A DNA stretch of 27,971 nucleotides. It comes from a virus. The notes beneath the pieces were generated by a model, which saw nothing but the letters and a program-made list of their open reading frames with translations, was not told the origin of the DNA and did no database searches. Location: IMG/VR virus record IMGVR_UViG_3300042868_000716, positions 1 to 27,971 of that record. The stretch is one strand, 5' to 3'. Below, piece by piece: positions 2,444-27,941 of this stretch. Numbering within the stretch: the first letter of the stretch is position 1; each line of letters starts with the position of its first letter. Made by a program: the position numbers and the translations under genes.

Positions 2444-2673
2444 CTCAAGAACGAATGCGAATGAGAATGAATATTAGGGGGTGTGTTCAATGCAACTCAT
2501 TCTCACTCAAGAAGCTGAATGAGAATTATTCTCAAGTACACTCTCAAGCATATGCTCAAGGGGTAGGCAGGGGGTTGGGTATAGATTCTATTGGTGCATT
2601 GCACCCTCAAAATATCTCATAGAAATTTACACATTCAGAAAGCTCAAGTATATTCTCAAGATTTATTCTCAAG
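2444..2673. repeat. CTCAAG iteron-like repeat array
   Basis: Eight exact CTCAAG hexamers occur at 2444, 2506, 2531, 2543, 2555, 2643, 2655 and 2668, all in one orientation. Two triplets are regularly spaced (12 and 12 bases; 12 and 13 bases). The unit CTCAAGTAYAYTCTCAAG occurs twice (2531-2548, 2643-2660). Embedded dyads are TGAGAAT-T-ATTCTCA (2520-2534) and TTATTCT-CA-AGAATAA (2663-2678). Between the triplets lie ATAGA-T-TCTAT (2581-2591) and GGTGC-ATT-GCACC (2593-2605). The array resembles initiator-binding iterons or a cooperative operator. Confidence 0.75.
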
Positions 2674-2820: not shown

Positions 2821-4449
2821 ATGGCTAAAATTACATTAAACAATATTACGAATACAAATCAAGTTTCTGTAATCAATGACAATTTTGATAAGATTGAGAA
2901 TGAATTACAGAATAAGGTTTTGTATAGAGACAATCCAAACAATGAACCCAATCCTCTGGTTACAGATGTAGATGTAAATCAAAGACGATTATACAATCTA
3001 CCAACTCCTGTATTGAGTCATCAGGCAGCTAGACTTAAAGATGTACAGAATGCTATTTCAGGAGCTACACAAGCCAATCTAATTAGCTTCACACCTTATG
3101 GGTCTATTTCTGCTGATACAGTACAAGGCGCTATTCAAGAGATTGTAGATGAGATGCCTACAGGTGGTGGAGGAGGTGGAGAAGCAGCTCCGGGAGGAGT
3201 AACTCTTTCAGATTTTGTTATTGATGCCACGACAGCAAACTCTCGTGTAGTGTTTACTGATACAGTTCCTGCTGGATGGAATATCAATGCAGGACGTTGT
3301 ACTGTAAGTTTTGACTTCCTTAGTAATGCATATTTCCAAGCCAACCCTACAGGACATATTGCTGTAGTTACTCGTGCTAATACGGATGTAATTGCTACAA
3401 GCGTATTTGGTACAGGTGTATGGATAGGTTATCTTGTAGGCGTAACTAACGCTAACGACTACGCTCCATCTATGGGCCTTGAGACGTGGGCTAATGGGGT
3501 TATGCCTAATAACAACTACTTGTTCCGTTATTCGGGCTCTCCTCGTAACATCCTACTTAAAGATGCTCAACAATATCGTGTTGTTATTGAGAGCACTAAA
3601 ACTACAGCGGGTGAAAGGTTTATTCGTTATAAGCTTTATGAACGTGAAGCTGTAAGTGAATATTGGAAGCTATTGAACGACACAGGGGATGTATTAGATC
3701 ATAATCGTTGGGCTGACTTAACAAAACACGGACTGGTTTTTGCTCACGTATTTGGAAGTAATCTGGTACCTTGGTCTTTAAGCTTTACCAATGTAAAGGT
3801 TACATGGAATGCTGCTCCTGCTGCTGTGTCAGATGCAACCAATAGGCTTTCTCGCTTTGGTGCAGACCTAGAAGGAGATTTGACATTACAAGGTAATGCA
3901 CGTCGTATCCGCGTAAACAACACAGGAAGTAATGCGGTCAATTGGACTTCGTTCCAAACAACGAACAGTAATGCCTCTACGTCCGTAATGGTAATCCCTA
4001 ACGGAACATCTACTACTTGTAATTTCTTTGCGGTTAATTCCAGCAACCCTGCTAGTTCTTATCGAGCAGCCACATTTGGAATGGCTGGAGGGGAAGCTTT
4101 AATTGAGACGTTTAATTTAGGACAAGTTGATCCAACGTTTAACATTAACATTGGGCCCGCAAACACTGTAGCTCGTTTCAAAACTACAGGTCTTAACATT
4201 CTAAATGCTGCTAGAGACATTGGTCAACCGGTTGAGTCGTATACGTTTATGAGTCAATGGGGAGGAAGTAGTGCAAAATCGTTTACAGACGGTACAGTGT
4301 TTAACGTAGATAGTGTTTGTACTGTCGGAACGATTCGTACGTTTATGAGTGCAACACCTACTAATGAACAAGTAGAAAATGCTTTACGTCCTCTCTACTG
4401 TATTGTATCAACCCTATACAAAGAACTAAAAGATAAGAAAGTTATTTAA
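2821..4449 (+). CDS. tail fibre / receptor-binding protein 1 (542 aa)
   Basis: Probable tail fibre. The start at 2821 (MAKITLNNITNTN) follows AAAAGG by seven bases and matches the start of the second fibre at 5752; the open frame to 2761 upstream is leader sequence. Residues 1-80 are the virion-anchoring domain, containing INDNFDKIENEL, VLYRDNP and RRLYNLPTP, a signature shared by many podovirus fibres. A poly-Gly hinge follows at about 115-120, then a beta-rich region (about 130-350) that looks like a lectin-type sandwich, and a C-terminal Asn/Thr/Ser-rich beta region. The last 40 residues (PTNEQVENALRPLYCIVSTL) form a helix that may trimerise. It opens the rightward operon and overlaps the next gene at TAATG. 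Confidence 0.85.
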   Translation: MAKITLNNITNTNQVSVINDNFDKIENELQNKVLYRDNPNNEPNPLVTDVDVNQRRLYNLPTPVLSHQAARLKDVQNAISGATQANLISFTPYGSISADTVQGAIQEIVDEMPTGGGGGGEAAPGGVTLSDFVIDATTANSRVVFTDTVPAGWNINAGRCTVSFDFLSNAYFQANPTGHIAVVTRANTDVIATSVFGTGVWIGYLVGVTNANDYAPSMGLETWANGVMPNNNYLFRYSGSPRNILLKDAQQYRVVIESTKTTAGERFIRYKLYEREAVSEYWKLLNDTGDVLDHNRWADLTKHGLVFAHVFGSNLVPWSLSFTNVKVTWNAAPAAVSDATNRLSRFGADLEGDLTLQGNARRIRVNNTGSNAVNWTSFQTTNSNASTSVMVIPNGTSTTCNFFAVNSSNPASSYRAATFGMAGGEALIETFNLGQVDPTFNINIGPANTVARFKTTGLNILNAARDIGQPVESYTFMSQWGGSSAKSFTDGTVFNVDSVCTVGTIRTFMSATPTNEQVENALRPLYCIVSTLYKELKDKKVI

Positions 4450-7745: not shown

Positions 7746-8249
7746 ATGAATTATATTAATATTGAAACTTTACAAGCTGTATCTATCTATGATATTCGAT
7801 CTGCTAACCCAAATATGTCTATTCCTGATGGCGCATATCTAGAGGAATTAGGCTATGCTAGAATAGAAAGTAGCACGCCTCCAGATTTAGGTCCTTGGCA
7901 AACAGTTACACCCTCTTATCCAGTAAAGAAAGATGGTATTTGGTTTGAAGGATTTAATTTGATAACCTTATCTTCAGAGGAAATTATATTGTATGTAACA
8001 GCGGCAGTTCAACGAAGATTAGATGATTTTGCACGAACACATAACTACGACGGCATATTAAGCGCCTGTACTTATGCTACCAGTGCAATTCCTAAATTTG
8101 CATTGGAAGGTCAGTATGCCGTCCAAGCTCGTGATGAAACTTGGGCTACGTGTTATAGAATAATGGGGGAGGTTTTACAAGGGATTCGTCCTATGCCTTC
8201 GCTTGAAGCTGTTATTAATGAACTCCCTGAATTGAAATGGCCTGAATGA
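7746..8249 (+). CDS. fibre-associated protein, possible tail-fibre assembly chaperone (167 aa)
   Basis: Small protein right after the fibre/lectin genes. The N-terminal half has a domain of about 70 residues, with LGPWQTVTPSYPVKKDGIWF. The C-terminal part (RRLDDFARTHNYDGILSACT, then YATSAIPKFALEGQYAVQA and ARDETWATCYRIMGEVLQGI) matches a pattern frequent in DUF4376-like and fibre-assembly proteins of phages. The family usually assists fibre folding or attaches to it, so a chaperone or baseplate role is inferred from memory and position. Base composition returns abruptly to AT-rich at its first codon. The stop overlaps the next start (ATGA at 8246-8249). Confidence 0.65.
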   Translation: MNYINIETLQAVSIYDIRSANPNMSIPDGAYLEELGYARIESSTPPDLGPWQTVTPSYPVKKDGIWFEGFNLITLSSEEIILYVTAAVQRRLDDFARTHNYDGILSACTYATSAIPKFALEGQYAVQARDETWATCYRIMGEVLQGIRPMPSLEAVINELPELKWPE

Positions 8250-8746
8250 ATAAGCAAGAAACAATGCTAGACAGCATGGGTAAATTTCGTACTCAATCTC
8301 TATTTCTGGAGATTGGGTATGGAGATGATGCTGTATTCACTTTAAAAGATAATGACCACGAGCATAATGGTAAAACCTACCTTTCGCTTAAACGTCTATA
8401 TCTTGAACTGGAAGATCCTACGGAATATGAGTTTGCCAATCTACATCTGTTAGGTTGGAGACACTGGCAACGTATGTGTGAGAATAAGGTTATCAAGAAG
8501 CATGTAGAGGAGTGGAGAGAGGAGCTGGAAATTAAGCTTCGTTCTCAAGCAATTCGAGATGCTATTGCGCAAGCTAAGCAGGGACACTTCCAAGCCGCTA
8601 AATGGGTGGCAGATAGGGGTTGGGCTTCCCGAGGTGCTGGAAGGCCCTCTAAGGCCGAAATAGAGCGTGAGAAGGGCATCCAATCACGTATTAATGATGA
8701 GTATGACGGAGACGTTGTACGTATGTTTGCTAACCAAGGAAAATAA
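8246..8746 (+). CDS. terS: probable small terminase subunit (166 aa)
   Basis: Likely DNA-recognition subunit of the packaging motor, called mainly by position two genes before the large terminase and by a helical, charged make-up. The middle section (RHWQRMCENKVIKKHVEEWR, then EELEIKLRSQAIRDAIAQAK) is helical and could be an oligomerisation or DNA-binding core. The tail (WASRGAGRPSKAEIEREKGI) contains GRPSKAE, a basic motif common in phage terminase small subunits. No classical helix-turn-helix is obvious by eye. The start overlaps the previous stop, and the stop overlaps the 58-aa gene (TAATG), indicating coupled translation through to the large terminase. Confidence 0.65.
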   Translation: MNKQETMLDSMGKFRTQSLFLEIGYGDDAVFTLKDNDHEHNGKTYLSLKRLYLELEDPTEYEFANLHLLGWRHWQRMCENKVIKKHVEEWREELEIKLRSQAIRDAIAQAKQGHFQAAKWVADRGWASRGAGRPSKAEIEREKGIQSRINDEYDGDVVRMFANQGK

Positions 8747-8922
8747 TGGCTACACTATTAGGCGGAATGTCTGGTAAAGCAGAGAAAGCTATTCGTGATC
8801 GTAAGAGTCAATTGGACGATCAAGAGTCTAAGATTCTTGACACCAAGTATGACGAAAAGAAGAATAAAGATGCTGCTGATGGTAAGACACGTTTAACCAC
8901 TGACGATAAGAAATATAAATAA
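8746..8922 (+). CDS. 58-aa Lys/Asp-rich small protein between terminase genes
   Basis: A short gene filling the gap between the small and large terminase genes, joined to both by TAATG overlaps (8744-8748 and 8920-8924). The product begins MATLLGGMSGKAEKAIRDRK, and the rest is almost entirely Lys, Asp, Gln and Thr (LDTKYDEKKNKDAADGKTRL). It is probably disordered or a single helix. The exact abutment on both sides and in-register codon use make it credible despite its size. Function unknown; a terminase accessory role follows only from position. Confidence 0.75.
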   Translation: MATLLGGMSGKAEKAIRDRKSQLDDQESKILDTKYDEKKNKDAADGKTRLTTDDKKYK

Positions 8923-10532
8923 TGAGTAAGGAAGAAGATGATTGGCTCCAGCGGGCTCTAACAAAACTTGAAAAGATGCCTGAAGAGGCAAAGCAGATTA
9001 GAGAAACTGCAATGAACGACCTCTTCTTCTTTGCCAAGCTAGTTAATCCCGGATACGTATATGGTGAAGTGCATAAGGAGATTTTTCTCTGGATGCAAGA
9101 ATACACCCTATACGGTCAAGGGTCTACCCACGTAACTAACAAGCTTATTATGCTTCCTCGTGCCCATTTAAAAAGCCATATGGTGGCTACATGGGCAGCG
9201 TGGATTATAACTAGGCATCCTGAAGTGACCATCCTGTATGTGTCAGCTACTTCGGGACTGGCAGAGACTCAGCTCTTTGCTATTAAGAACATTTTAGAAA
9301 GCTCTGTCTATTCTCGTTACTTCCCAGAATACCTTCATCCTCAAGAGGGTAAGCGAGAGAAGTGGAGTCAGACAGCTATTTCCATTGACCATCCTAAGAG
9401 ACGGAAGGAAGGGATTCGAGACGCCACAATCTCTACAGCAGGACTGACAACCAATACAACCGGATGGCACGCAGACATTCTTATCCCAGACGACTTAGTT
9501 GTCCCTGAGAATGCCTATACAGAAGATGGACGAGAAAGCGTTTCTAAGAAAGCTTCTCAATTCACATCTATTCTGAATGCCGGTGGATTTACAATGGCTT
9601 GTGGAACTCGTTACCACCCGTCTGACATTTATGCAGACTGGAAGAAACAAGAGTTTGACATTTACGATGAGAACGATAACATTGTTGATCGTGTTAACGT
9701 TTGGGACGTAAAGGAATATGTTGTAGAGGTGGATGGTGTATTCATCTGGCCTCGTACTGTTCGCCCATCAGATGGTAAGTCTTTTGGATTTAATAATCAA
9801 GTTCTCTCTAAGATTCGGGCTCAATATGAAGACCGTGTACAATTTTTTGCTCAATACTACAATGACCCCAATGATGCTGGAAGCAATCGTATTGATCGCT
9901 CTAAGTTCCAGTATTATGATAAAAAGTTTCTAAAGCAATCAGATGGACATTGGTTTTATCGAAGCAGGCGCTTAAATGTGTATGCTGCTATCGACTTTGC
10001 TTTTAGTATGTCCAAGAAGGCCGACAGCACAGCTATTGTCGTTATTGGTATTGATGACGAGGGGTATATCTACATCCTTGATATTGACCGCTTTAAGAGC
10101 GATAAGATTGGAGAATACTTTAGCCGTGTTGCTCATCTACACTCGAAATGGGAGTTTAAGAAGCTCAGAGCTGAAGTGACAGTGGCTCAAGCTGTTATTG
10201 TTAGAGATTTGAAAGATAAGCTTCGTTCTGAAGGGCTCTCACTTTCTATTGATGAGCATCGTCCTACACGTAACGAAGGAACAAAAGAAGAGCGTATTGC
10301 AGCAGCCTTAGAGCATAAGTACGACAGCATGTCGGTATGGCACTTTAAAGGGGGTTATATGGACGTTCTAGAGGAGGAACTGGTTTTGGCTAGGCCACCC
10401 CATGACGACATTAAAGATGCCCTTGCAAGCGCCGTAGAGATCGCTGTAAAGCCTAAGACAGCTCGTCATAACGAGACAAGAGATAATATCGTAGCATTCC
10501 ACCCTCGTTTTGGTGGTGTTAAGTTTTCATAA
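8922..10532 (+). CDS. terL: large terminase subunit (536 aa)
   Basis: ATPase-nuclease that translocates phage DNA into proheads and cuts it. The N-terminal ATPase shows a Walker A variant PRAHLKS (residues 79-85), a second strand ILYVSATS (about 104-111), Walker B ILIPDD (186-191) and the coupling motif CGTRYHPSDIY (227-237). The C-terminal RNase H-like nuclease has AIDFAFS with D358, DSTAIVVIG, and a final acidic pair in HDDIKDAL (D495, D496). Length and motif order are typical of TerL. The Lys-shifted Walker A (PRxHLKS) is the form found in T7-like marine podoviruses. The start is coupled to the 58-aa gene; the ribosome site is otherwise weak. Confidence 0.95.
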   Translation: MSKEEDDWLQRALTKLEKMPEEAKQIRETAMNDLFFFAKLVNPGYVYGEVHKEIFLWMQEYTLYGQGSTHVTNKLIMLPRAHLKSHMVATWAAWIITRHPEVTILYVSATSGLAETQLFAIKNILESSVYSRYFPEYLHPQEGKREKWSQTAISIDHPKRRKEGIRDATISTAGLTTNTTGWHADILIPDDLVVPENAYTEDGRESVSKKASQFTSILNAGGFTMACGTRYHPSDIYADWKKQEFDIYDENDNIVDRVNVWDVKEYVVEVDGVFIWPRTVRPSDGKSFGFNNQVLSKIRAQYEDRVQFFAQYYNDPNDAGSNRIDRSKFQYYDKKFLKQSDGHWFYRSRRLNVYAAIDFAFSMSKKADSTAIVVIGIDDEGYIYILDIDRFKSDKIGEYFSRVAHLHSKWEFKKLRAEVTVAQAVIVRDLKDKLRSEGLSLSIDEHRPTRNEGTKEERIAAALEHKYDSMSVWHFKGGYMDVLEEELVLARPPHDDIKDALASAVEIAVKPKTARHNETRDNIVAFHPRFGGVKFS

Positions 10533-26640: not shown

Positions 26641-27661
26641 TGAAGCTCCCAAGGAACAAATGCCTTGGGAGATGACTTGGACTGAAAAAGCTAAGCAAGC
26701 TATCACATCTACAATCGACACAGCTAAGAAGGCTGTAGAAGGCGTCCAGATGCCTTGGGAACGCGATTGGAAAGAGAAGCCAAGGGTAGCCCCTACCCCA
26801 GCTCCTGAGAAGCCTGTAGACCTTTCTAAGCCCGTCTATCCTACTGAATCTTCTATGAAGGTTGCGGCTAAGCTCTCTCCACAAGAGGAGGCTAGAAGTG
26901 CAGCTAGAGAACGTTCTAGCCAGAACATTAAGGAGCTTCAGAAGGAGATTGAGAGAACGAAGGACCCTAAAGCTAAGAAGGTGCTTACGGACTATATGAC
27001 TTCTTTAGGAGGGACAACCTCACAAAAAGAAATAGGGGCGGGTACAGATAAGGGTGATGCTAAGTTAAAAACACTACTTGATAACGCAGCTAACAATTCT
27101 GACTTTAAGACCCTTTATTCTTTCCTCCAAGATAAGAACAGTCTCCCTGAGATGAAAGTAGATCCTTCTATTGACAGTAGGGGCGTATTTACATACGGAG
27201 ATGGAATGCCTAGCTCTGGGGTTCTGTCTGTAGGTGGTTCCTCGCAAGGGTATGTCTCTACGTTGGTACATGAGATGACTCATGCTGCTGATCGTCAAAT
27301 GATACGCTTGTCTCAGGATATTGAAAAAGCTATTCGTAACAAAGAGAAAGTCTCTAACGAAGAGAAACAATTCTTAGAGAACTGGAAGAAGTCCTTTGGA
27401 GCACGTAGTATTGGCGAGGGTGGTGGAGAAGCTGTAGGGATGAAGTCGTTGATGAAGTCTGTAGCTGATCCTAAATGGCTATCTGATAATCAAGACTATC
27501 GCACTACACGTTCTGAATCTATTGCTCACGGAGTAGGTAATGTAAATAAGAAAGCTTCTGAAATCTACAATTTACAAACACACATGGACCCATCTATCGC
27601 AACAGAGTTTATGATTCTTCTGAATCAAGCGAATAAGATTAGTAAGAAACGAAAGGACTAA
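26618..27661 (+). CDS. HExxH metallopeptidase-like virion-module protein (347 aa)
   Basis: Probable zinc metallopeptidase. From the GTG at 26618 (GGGGGG eight bases upstream), the product has two copies of a QMPWExxWxEK motif near the N-terminus, a Pro-rich linker (VAPTPAPEKPVDLSKPVYP), a helical region, then GYVSTLVHEMTHAADRQM with the HExxH site at H218-E219-H222. About 78 residues later TRSESIAHGVG supplies a plausible third ligand (a Glu), as in gluzincins. ATG starts at 26612 or 26588 are alternatives. It ends the core-protein block, so it may be packaged and act on the host envelope or trim virion proteins. No signal peptide. Confidence 0.7.
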   Translation: MTQPTGSNEAPKEQMPWEMTWTEKAKQAITSTIDTAKKAVEGVQMPWERDWKEKPRVAPTPAPEKPVDLSKPVYPTESSMKVAAKLSPQEEARSAARERSSQNIKELQKEIERTKDPKAKKVLTDYMTSLGGTTSQKEIGAGTDKGDAKLKTLLDNAANNSDFKTLYSFLQDKNSLPEMKVDPSIDSRGVFTYGDGMPSSGVLSVGGSSQGYVSTLVHEMTHAADRQMIRLSQDIEKAIRNKEKVSNEEKQFLENWKKSFGARSIGEGGGEAVGMKSLMKSVADPKWLSDNQDYRTTRSESIAHGVGNVNKKASEIYNLQTHMDPSIATEFMILLNQANKISKKRKD

Positions 27662-27662
27662 T

Positions 27663-27941
27663 ATGCCCCAAAAAGGTGAATTTAAGAAGGGCGCTAAGCC
27701 GGACAGTGTACGACAGAGAGCGTATAATTCTAAGCCCTCAAGTAAGAAAGATAGAGCTTCTCGTAATGCAGCCCGTAGTGAAGCTATGAAAGACGGGAAG
27801 GTTAAGAAGGGAGATGGTAAGGATATTGACCATAAGAATTCCAACCCTCGTGACAATCGTAAGGGTAACACCCAAGTTATGCCAGCTAGTAAGAATCGTG
27901 CAATGAATCAACACGATCCTCGTCAAAAGAAGAAGAAATAA
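27663..27941 (+). CDS. small HNH-like nuclease / DNA-binding protein (92 aa)
   Basis: Very basic protein. The N-terminal half (RQRAYNSKPSSKKDRASRNA) is a positively charged helix. The C-terminal half carries KDIDHKNSNPRDNRKGNTQV then MPASKNRAMNQ, the pattern of a minimal HNH/His-Me finger: D56-H57, N61, N65, N69 and N78. The third metal-ligand His of the classical site is Asn here, as in many active phage HNH proteins. AAGGA precedes the ATG by five bases. Small HNH proteins assist TerL-mediated packaging in other phages, but this one lies far from terL, so a homing or recombination role is also possible. Confidence 0.68.
   Translation: MPQKGEFKKGAKPDSVRQRAYNSKPSSKKDRASRNAARSEAMKDGKVKKGDGKDIDHKNSNPRDNRKGNTQVMPASKNRAMNQHDPRQKKKK

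Follow-up and report, generated by a model that had tools for sequence, protein, structure and literature searches.

A CTCAAG short-repeat array at the predicted concatemer junction of a Zobellviridae-like podovirus

A phased array of the hexamer CTCAAG in a Zobellviridae-like podovirus probably marks the place where long replicated DNA is cut into packaged genomes, judging from sequence comparisons with related phages. We favor the reading, with a probability of roughly 0.7, that the array belongs to the concatemer junction of this phage and works like the short-repeat arrays of phages T7 and T3.

The phage fragment and its CTCAAG array

The DNA that was analyzed (the window) is 27,971 bases long, makes up an entire IMG/VR virus record, and represents a genome fragment. 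Its large terminase subunit (8922-10532, plus strand) has 71.6% identity over 99% to that of PQ867841 and 68.7% identity to that of PA11, both members of the Zobellviridae. Residues 367-464 of this protein resemble the RNase H-like domain of the T7 terminase with a score of 26.7 bits, which is just below the Pfam cut-off of 27. A 166-aa protein (8246-8746, plus strand) is a candidate small terminase on the basis only of its position just upstream of the large subunit. The structure model of this protein has a mean pLDDT of 78.5, and its best PDB match, the phage protein 2ao9, is too weak (Z = 2.9) to supply a name. Four BFVD matches were found at E <= 0.001, with no terminase name among them.

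The final long leftward open reading frame starts at 1379. The first rightward gene (2821-4449, plus strand) encodes a protein with a tail fiber-like N-terminus and starts at 2821 or at an upstream in-frame ATG at 2761. To the left of the array, a 65-bp noncoding stretch (2282-2346) has 80% identity to PQ867852. A blastn search of the array region against a phage collection returned weak matches in large phages only; those to positions 2453-2540 fall in five such phages, and in two of these the match lies at 552-674 counted from where the record starts. Six copies of TAAGAA are also present at 27643-27890, close to the end of the record.

All eight CTCAAG copies of the array are exact and lie on the plus strand within 230 bp, where the minus strand has none. 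One copy (2444-2449) is to the left of the left cut of the terminal repeat predicted below, four (2506-2511, 2531-2536, 2543-2548, and 2555-2560) are inside this repeat with the last of them at -44 from the right cut, and three (2643-2648, 2655-2660, and 2668-2673) are to the right of the predicted right cut. Their start-to-start spacings are 62, 25, 12, 12, 88, 12, and 13 bp and include two triplets with 12/12 and 12/13 periods. An 18-bp unit begins at both 2531 and 2643, and the palindromes TGAGAAT-T-ATTCTCA and TTATTCT-CA-AGAATAA begin at 2520 and 2663, respectively. The counts, periods, and repeated elements in the preliminary description are thus all borne out.

The array is real and beyond chance. 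When the window was shuffled 300 times with its dinucleotides preserved, no hexamer had more than five copies in any 230 bp, a count reached in 3/300 shuffles, and CTCAAG itself had at most three copies in 2000 shuffles of positions 2280-2820, a count reached in 1/2000. The preliminary description had proposed that an equal density of CTCAAG elsewhere would speak against a special element, and the window-wide count gives 34.8 copies per kb in the array versus 0.61 per kb on the plus strand outside it. The rest of the window holds 17 copies on the plus strand and four on the minus strand. Because the total on both strands is 29 versus 18.8 (sd 3.6) expected in shuffles, the surplus in the window is mostly due to the array. 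Outside the array in the whole records of relatives, CTCAAG is somewhat commoner than its backwards control.

Conserved core and predicted terminal repeat

Homology to the recorded ends of phages O4, K4, and RIO-1 predicts a direct terminal repeat of 108 bp at 2491-2598 (plus strand). Three elements on the same strand make up a core at its right end. A G-rich part (GGGGTAGGCAGGGGGTTGGG) occupies 2560-2579, a dyad GGTGCA/TTGCACC occupies 2593-2605 with the predicted cut (the slash here and below) between 2598 and 2599, and a AAAATATCT...AGAAATT...ACATT element that is conserved in relatives lies immediately to the right of this cut at 2609-2636. The core of the relatives has the corresponding order of G-runs, GGTGCA/TTGCACC, and a AAATTTCT...AAATT...ACAAT element.

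A core profile built from 14 seeds, window included, matches 56 of 137 sources at E <= 1e-5 and never twice in the same source; many of the sources do not extend over the junction. Removal of duplicates left 43 core regions, which together with RIO-1 (E = 0.015) give a set of 44 with 14 seeds and 30 non-seeds. This set omits 16 duplicates, overlapping pieces, or partial records and, except for RIO-1, everything with E > 1e-5. The window, itself a seed, matches at E = 6.5e-17, and the non-seed Zobellviridae matches include Pecta (8.9e-13), Klyazma (1.2e-10), CVT22 (1.4e-9), and CW02 (3.4e-7). The profile found no match in VpV262 or PQ867852.

Several other observations concern the core elements. 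Most of the genomes listed have three to four G-runs ahead of the right cut (2560-2579 in the window), which might form a G-quadruplex. In PA11-like phages, two further intergenic sites have weak matches (E 0.15-0.8) to the AAATTTCT-type element (L085:20346-20382 and 1755-1801; L106:21429-21464 and 41296-41342), and L089, L090, and L095 have more copies of this type after the core. In phage O4 (L101:123-590), the "endonuclease" gene of NC_031274 begins 49 bp to the right of the right cut, inside the conserved element.

The recorded genome ends of some family members tie this core to the terminal repeat. The O4 and K4 records each have an exact 74-bp end repeat with a right end of AGGTGCA/TTGAC and a left end of GTGCAA/TACACC, and the K4 ends were possibly set by analogy to O4. 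RIO-1 has an annotated terminal repeat of 121 bp with a right end of GGTGCA/TAGCACC. In all three, the right end of the recorded repeat coincides with the core dyad. By eye, a similar AT-rich element adjoins the right end of the terminal repeat in VpV262 (138 bp) and in ICBM1 (172 bp). The window shares with the termini of O4, K4, RIO-1, VpV262, and ICBM1 the same site between the early and late modules and a G-rich part, but ends are recorded in those phages, whereas they are predicted by homology in the window. Homology gives good support for placing the array across the predicted concatemer junction of this Zobellviridae-like phage.

Recorded terminal repeats are 74-172 bp long with the exception of Klyazma, where a differently placed repeat of 711 bp is recorded. 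This repeat stops at the left cut site in both Klyazma sources (L109 and L110) so that the core falls outside it, and its placement counts against a simple rule linking core and terminal repeat. The Pecta record seems to begin at the left site. No exact end repeat of at least 10 bp is present in the TC6, IME180, Ty, CVT22, CW02, Pecta, or GP100 records, of which Pecta alone entered the comparison of ends, through its record start. A 127-bp end overlap in JSF23 probably stems from assembly and was disregarded, and the JSF23 pieces that were compared stop short of the junction.

Parts of these termini have been described before. In the passages that concern termini, one paper gives ends of 159-173 bp for three ICBM phages from PacBio reads and describes a G+C-rich region that the terminal repeats of cobaviruses conserve (PMC6775973), and another gives family terminal repeats, where described, of 74-138 bp and 711 bp for Klyazma (PMC9960094). 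A CTCAAG-type array goes unmentioned in these published passages on Zobellviridae termini. Literature searches, several of them directed at T7 or at termini in a broad sense, yielded no Zobellviridae paper on such arrays among the matches listed.

Word, strand, and spacing in relatives

The closest relatives of the window likewise have copies to the left of, within, and to the right of the predicted repeat. Fifteen junctions, including that of the window, each have a single form of the word. Eight have CTCAAG (56 copies) and no CTTGAG, six have its reverse complement CTTGAG (37 copies) and no CTCAAG, and one has CTCAGG (six copies). These 15 (12 plus 3) were chosen for having copies, and the three were found with patterns that require two like copies. 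Five of them (L006, L123, L127, L168, and L221) are truncated by contig ends, L028 and L094 are close kin, and the three copies of L123 alone are not above chance. L096 was omitted because it nearly duplicates L095, and L128 has a single copy and falls outside the 15.

The preliminary description had named loss of spacing in close relatives as a sign against the array. With gaps above 40 bp excluded, 42 of the 48 gaps in the compared genomes are 10-14 bp, and the commonest is 13 bp (17 gaps). The short step within groups is therefore mostly kept, whereas the positions of the groups vary.

Measured from the right cut, the last copy ahead of the G-runs lies at -43 to -46 in 12 of the 13 genomes compared and at -51 in the remaining one, and this distance is kept whichever strand carries the copy. 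Functionless repeats that slippage or recombination had multiplied close to the DNA ends could account for words that are lineage-specific and for the many family members without an array. They would not readily account for a last copy that keeps its place in spite of strand differences, for phased groups that recur, or for a layout like that of T7 and T3, and we judge this origin to be very unlikely. Because the array recurs in relatives and is uniform in strand, the comparisons support a functional phased array of the protein-binding type.

The core is widespread, and the CTCAAG-type array was detected in part of the Zobellviridae, with many members that have the core showing no array in the tests used. 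By the hexamer test, the best word is equaled in at most 2 of 300 shuffles for 12 of the 44 regions. Nine of these regions have CTCAAG or CTTGAG, and L033, L089, and L062 have other words. O4 and K4, which have the best-defined ends, show no array by this test. In the direct-repeat test, which omits junctions from sources shorter than 8000 bases or with fewer than 300 bases on the left, 9 of 22 junctions rank among the top 5% when compared with all windows of the same genome and 5 of 22 among the top 1%, and VpV262, CW02, O4, and others are without enrichment. In a 5-mer test, scores as high were reached in 2/500 shuffles for VpV262, 1/500 for ICBM1, and 233/500 for RIO-1.

A different binding partner was considered for the palindromes of the array. 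The sequence at 2520-2534 (TGAGAATTATTCTCA) resembles a Fur box, and TGAGAAT repeats occur in L062, which could point to sites for a host factor that recognizes Fur-like 7-1-7 palindromes (TGAGAATNATTCTCA). However, most CTCAAG copies are outside palindromes of this kind, and few or no TGAGAAT sequences occur near CTTGAG arrays, which makes host-factor sites extremely improbable.

The best reading of the history of the array in the family is a turnover of word and strand. Within the Zobellviridae, the whole array may have switched to its reverse complement or to another word while the core of the cut site stayed unchanged. The five CTCAAG genomes with the 166-aa protein group into one clade in the tree of this protein (support 95/92). 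Because 8 of the 12 inner branches of this tree are open, the number of strand switches cannot be read from it.

Likeness to known systems and a possible role

The preliminary description stated that no known podovirus element came to mind, but the short-repeat arrays at the terminal repeats of T7 and T3 match in layout. CTAAAG occurs 13 times in T7 and 10 times in T3, around and inside their terminal repeats of 160 and 231 bp, respectively. When put through the same hexamer test, both arrays have a commonest step of 13 bp, no copy on the other strand, and no shuffle as high (0/500). The T7 array also has steps of 19, 24-26, and 29 bp, and its three copies within the repeat follow one another at 24 and 19 bp. 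These arrays, called SRL and SRR in the T7 literature, were described long ago with an uncertain role, and that description was not among the matches listed in the literature searches. To our knowledge, the role of the T7 and T3 short repeats has never been settled.

The likeness has several components. A short word occurs in groups, most often at a step of 13 bp, both within and to either side of a terminal repeat, which in the window is one predicted by homology. Copies follow one another at steps of about 12-13 bp, as do those in the window (12, 12 and 12, 13). One strand alone is used, with eight of eight copies in the window, one form in 15 of 15 chosen junctions, and none reversed in T7 or T3. 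The differences are that the word is CTAAAG or CCTAAAG there and CTCAAG here, that the phages belong to another family, and that the strand of the array is reversed in some Zobellviridae lineages. Because the word differs, we call the CTCAAG array T7/T3-like in its working, by virtue of layout, and do not consider it a member of that class. CTCAAG is one base away from CTAAAG, which could reflect either homology or chance.

The preliminary description had suggested initiator iterons or a cooperative operator for rightward transcription. The part of this suggestion that stands is a phased array of the protein-binding type, but its place is the predicted genome-end region and not simply an operator. 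If the copies were replication iterons, then they would bind a phage initiator that opens the DNA near the divergence region. Like plasmid iterons, they are directional, iterated short repeats in an intergenic region, and the sign of the GC skew switches near 2500, an effect that divergent transcription would have by itself as well. Plasmid iterons have a step of roughly 20-22 bp, in contrast to the 12-13 bp steps here. Annotated relatives name primase/helicase, DNA polymerase, and exonucleases among many hypothetical genes, with no gene named initiator seen, and the early region of the window is mostly missing. The place of the array is also fixed relative to the predicted right cut, and we regard iterons as unlikely.

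The position of the array between divergent modules would fit a cooperative operator, or activator sites, serving either the late (rightward) or the early (leftward) genes. The weak recurrence of the AAATTTCT-type element at other intergenic sites in PA11-like phages and a sigma factor encoded by relatives also favor regulation. Against this, the copies both flank and occupy the predicted terminal repeat at a fixed distance from the right cut, and their strand is reversed between lineages. A regulatory function also seems unlikely to us.

From its layout and conservation, we infer that the array has a role in DNA maturation or packaging at the concatemer junction. Replicated genomes would be joined head to tail, and the terminase would make two cuts, one after 2490 and the other about 108 bp further on, after 2598. 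Every packaged genome would then carry the intervening piece as a direct terminal repeat. Most likely, the repeats would be bound by a multimeric protein, which is perhaps the small terminase and may recognize the junction or may guide the cutting and duplication of the terminal repeat.

A broader possibility, which we hold tentatively and at somewhat less than even odds, is that T7-type podoviruses in general use short-repeat arrays at genome ends as a maturation code. Two families have single-strand arrays with steps of about 13 bp around terminal repeats, in keeping with such a code. If it exists, then the protein would read a strand-uniform array whose orientation to the cuts is free to change. 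A T7/T3-like layout in a second family, together with natural variants in word and strand that retain the core, provides a comparative set that could be used to test the part that these repeats play in DNA maturation, terminal-repeat duplication, or packaging. The array and core may also help to predict the genome ends of Zobellviridae that are known solely from metagenomes.
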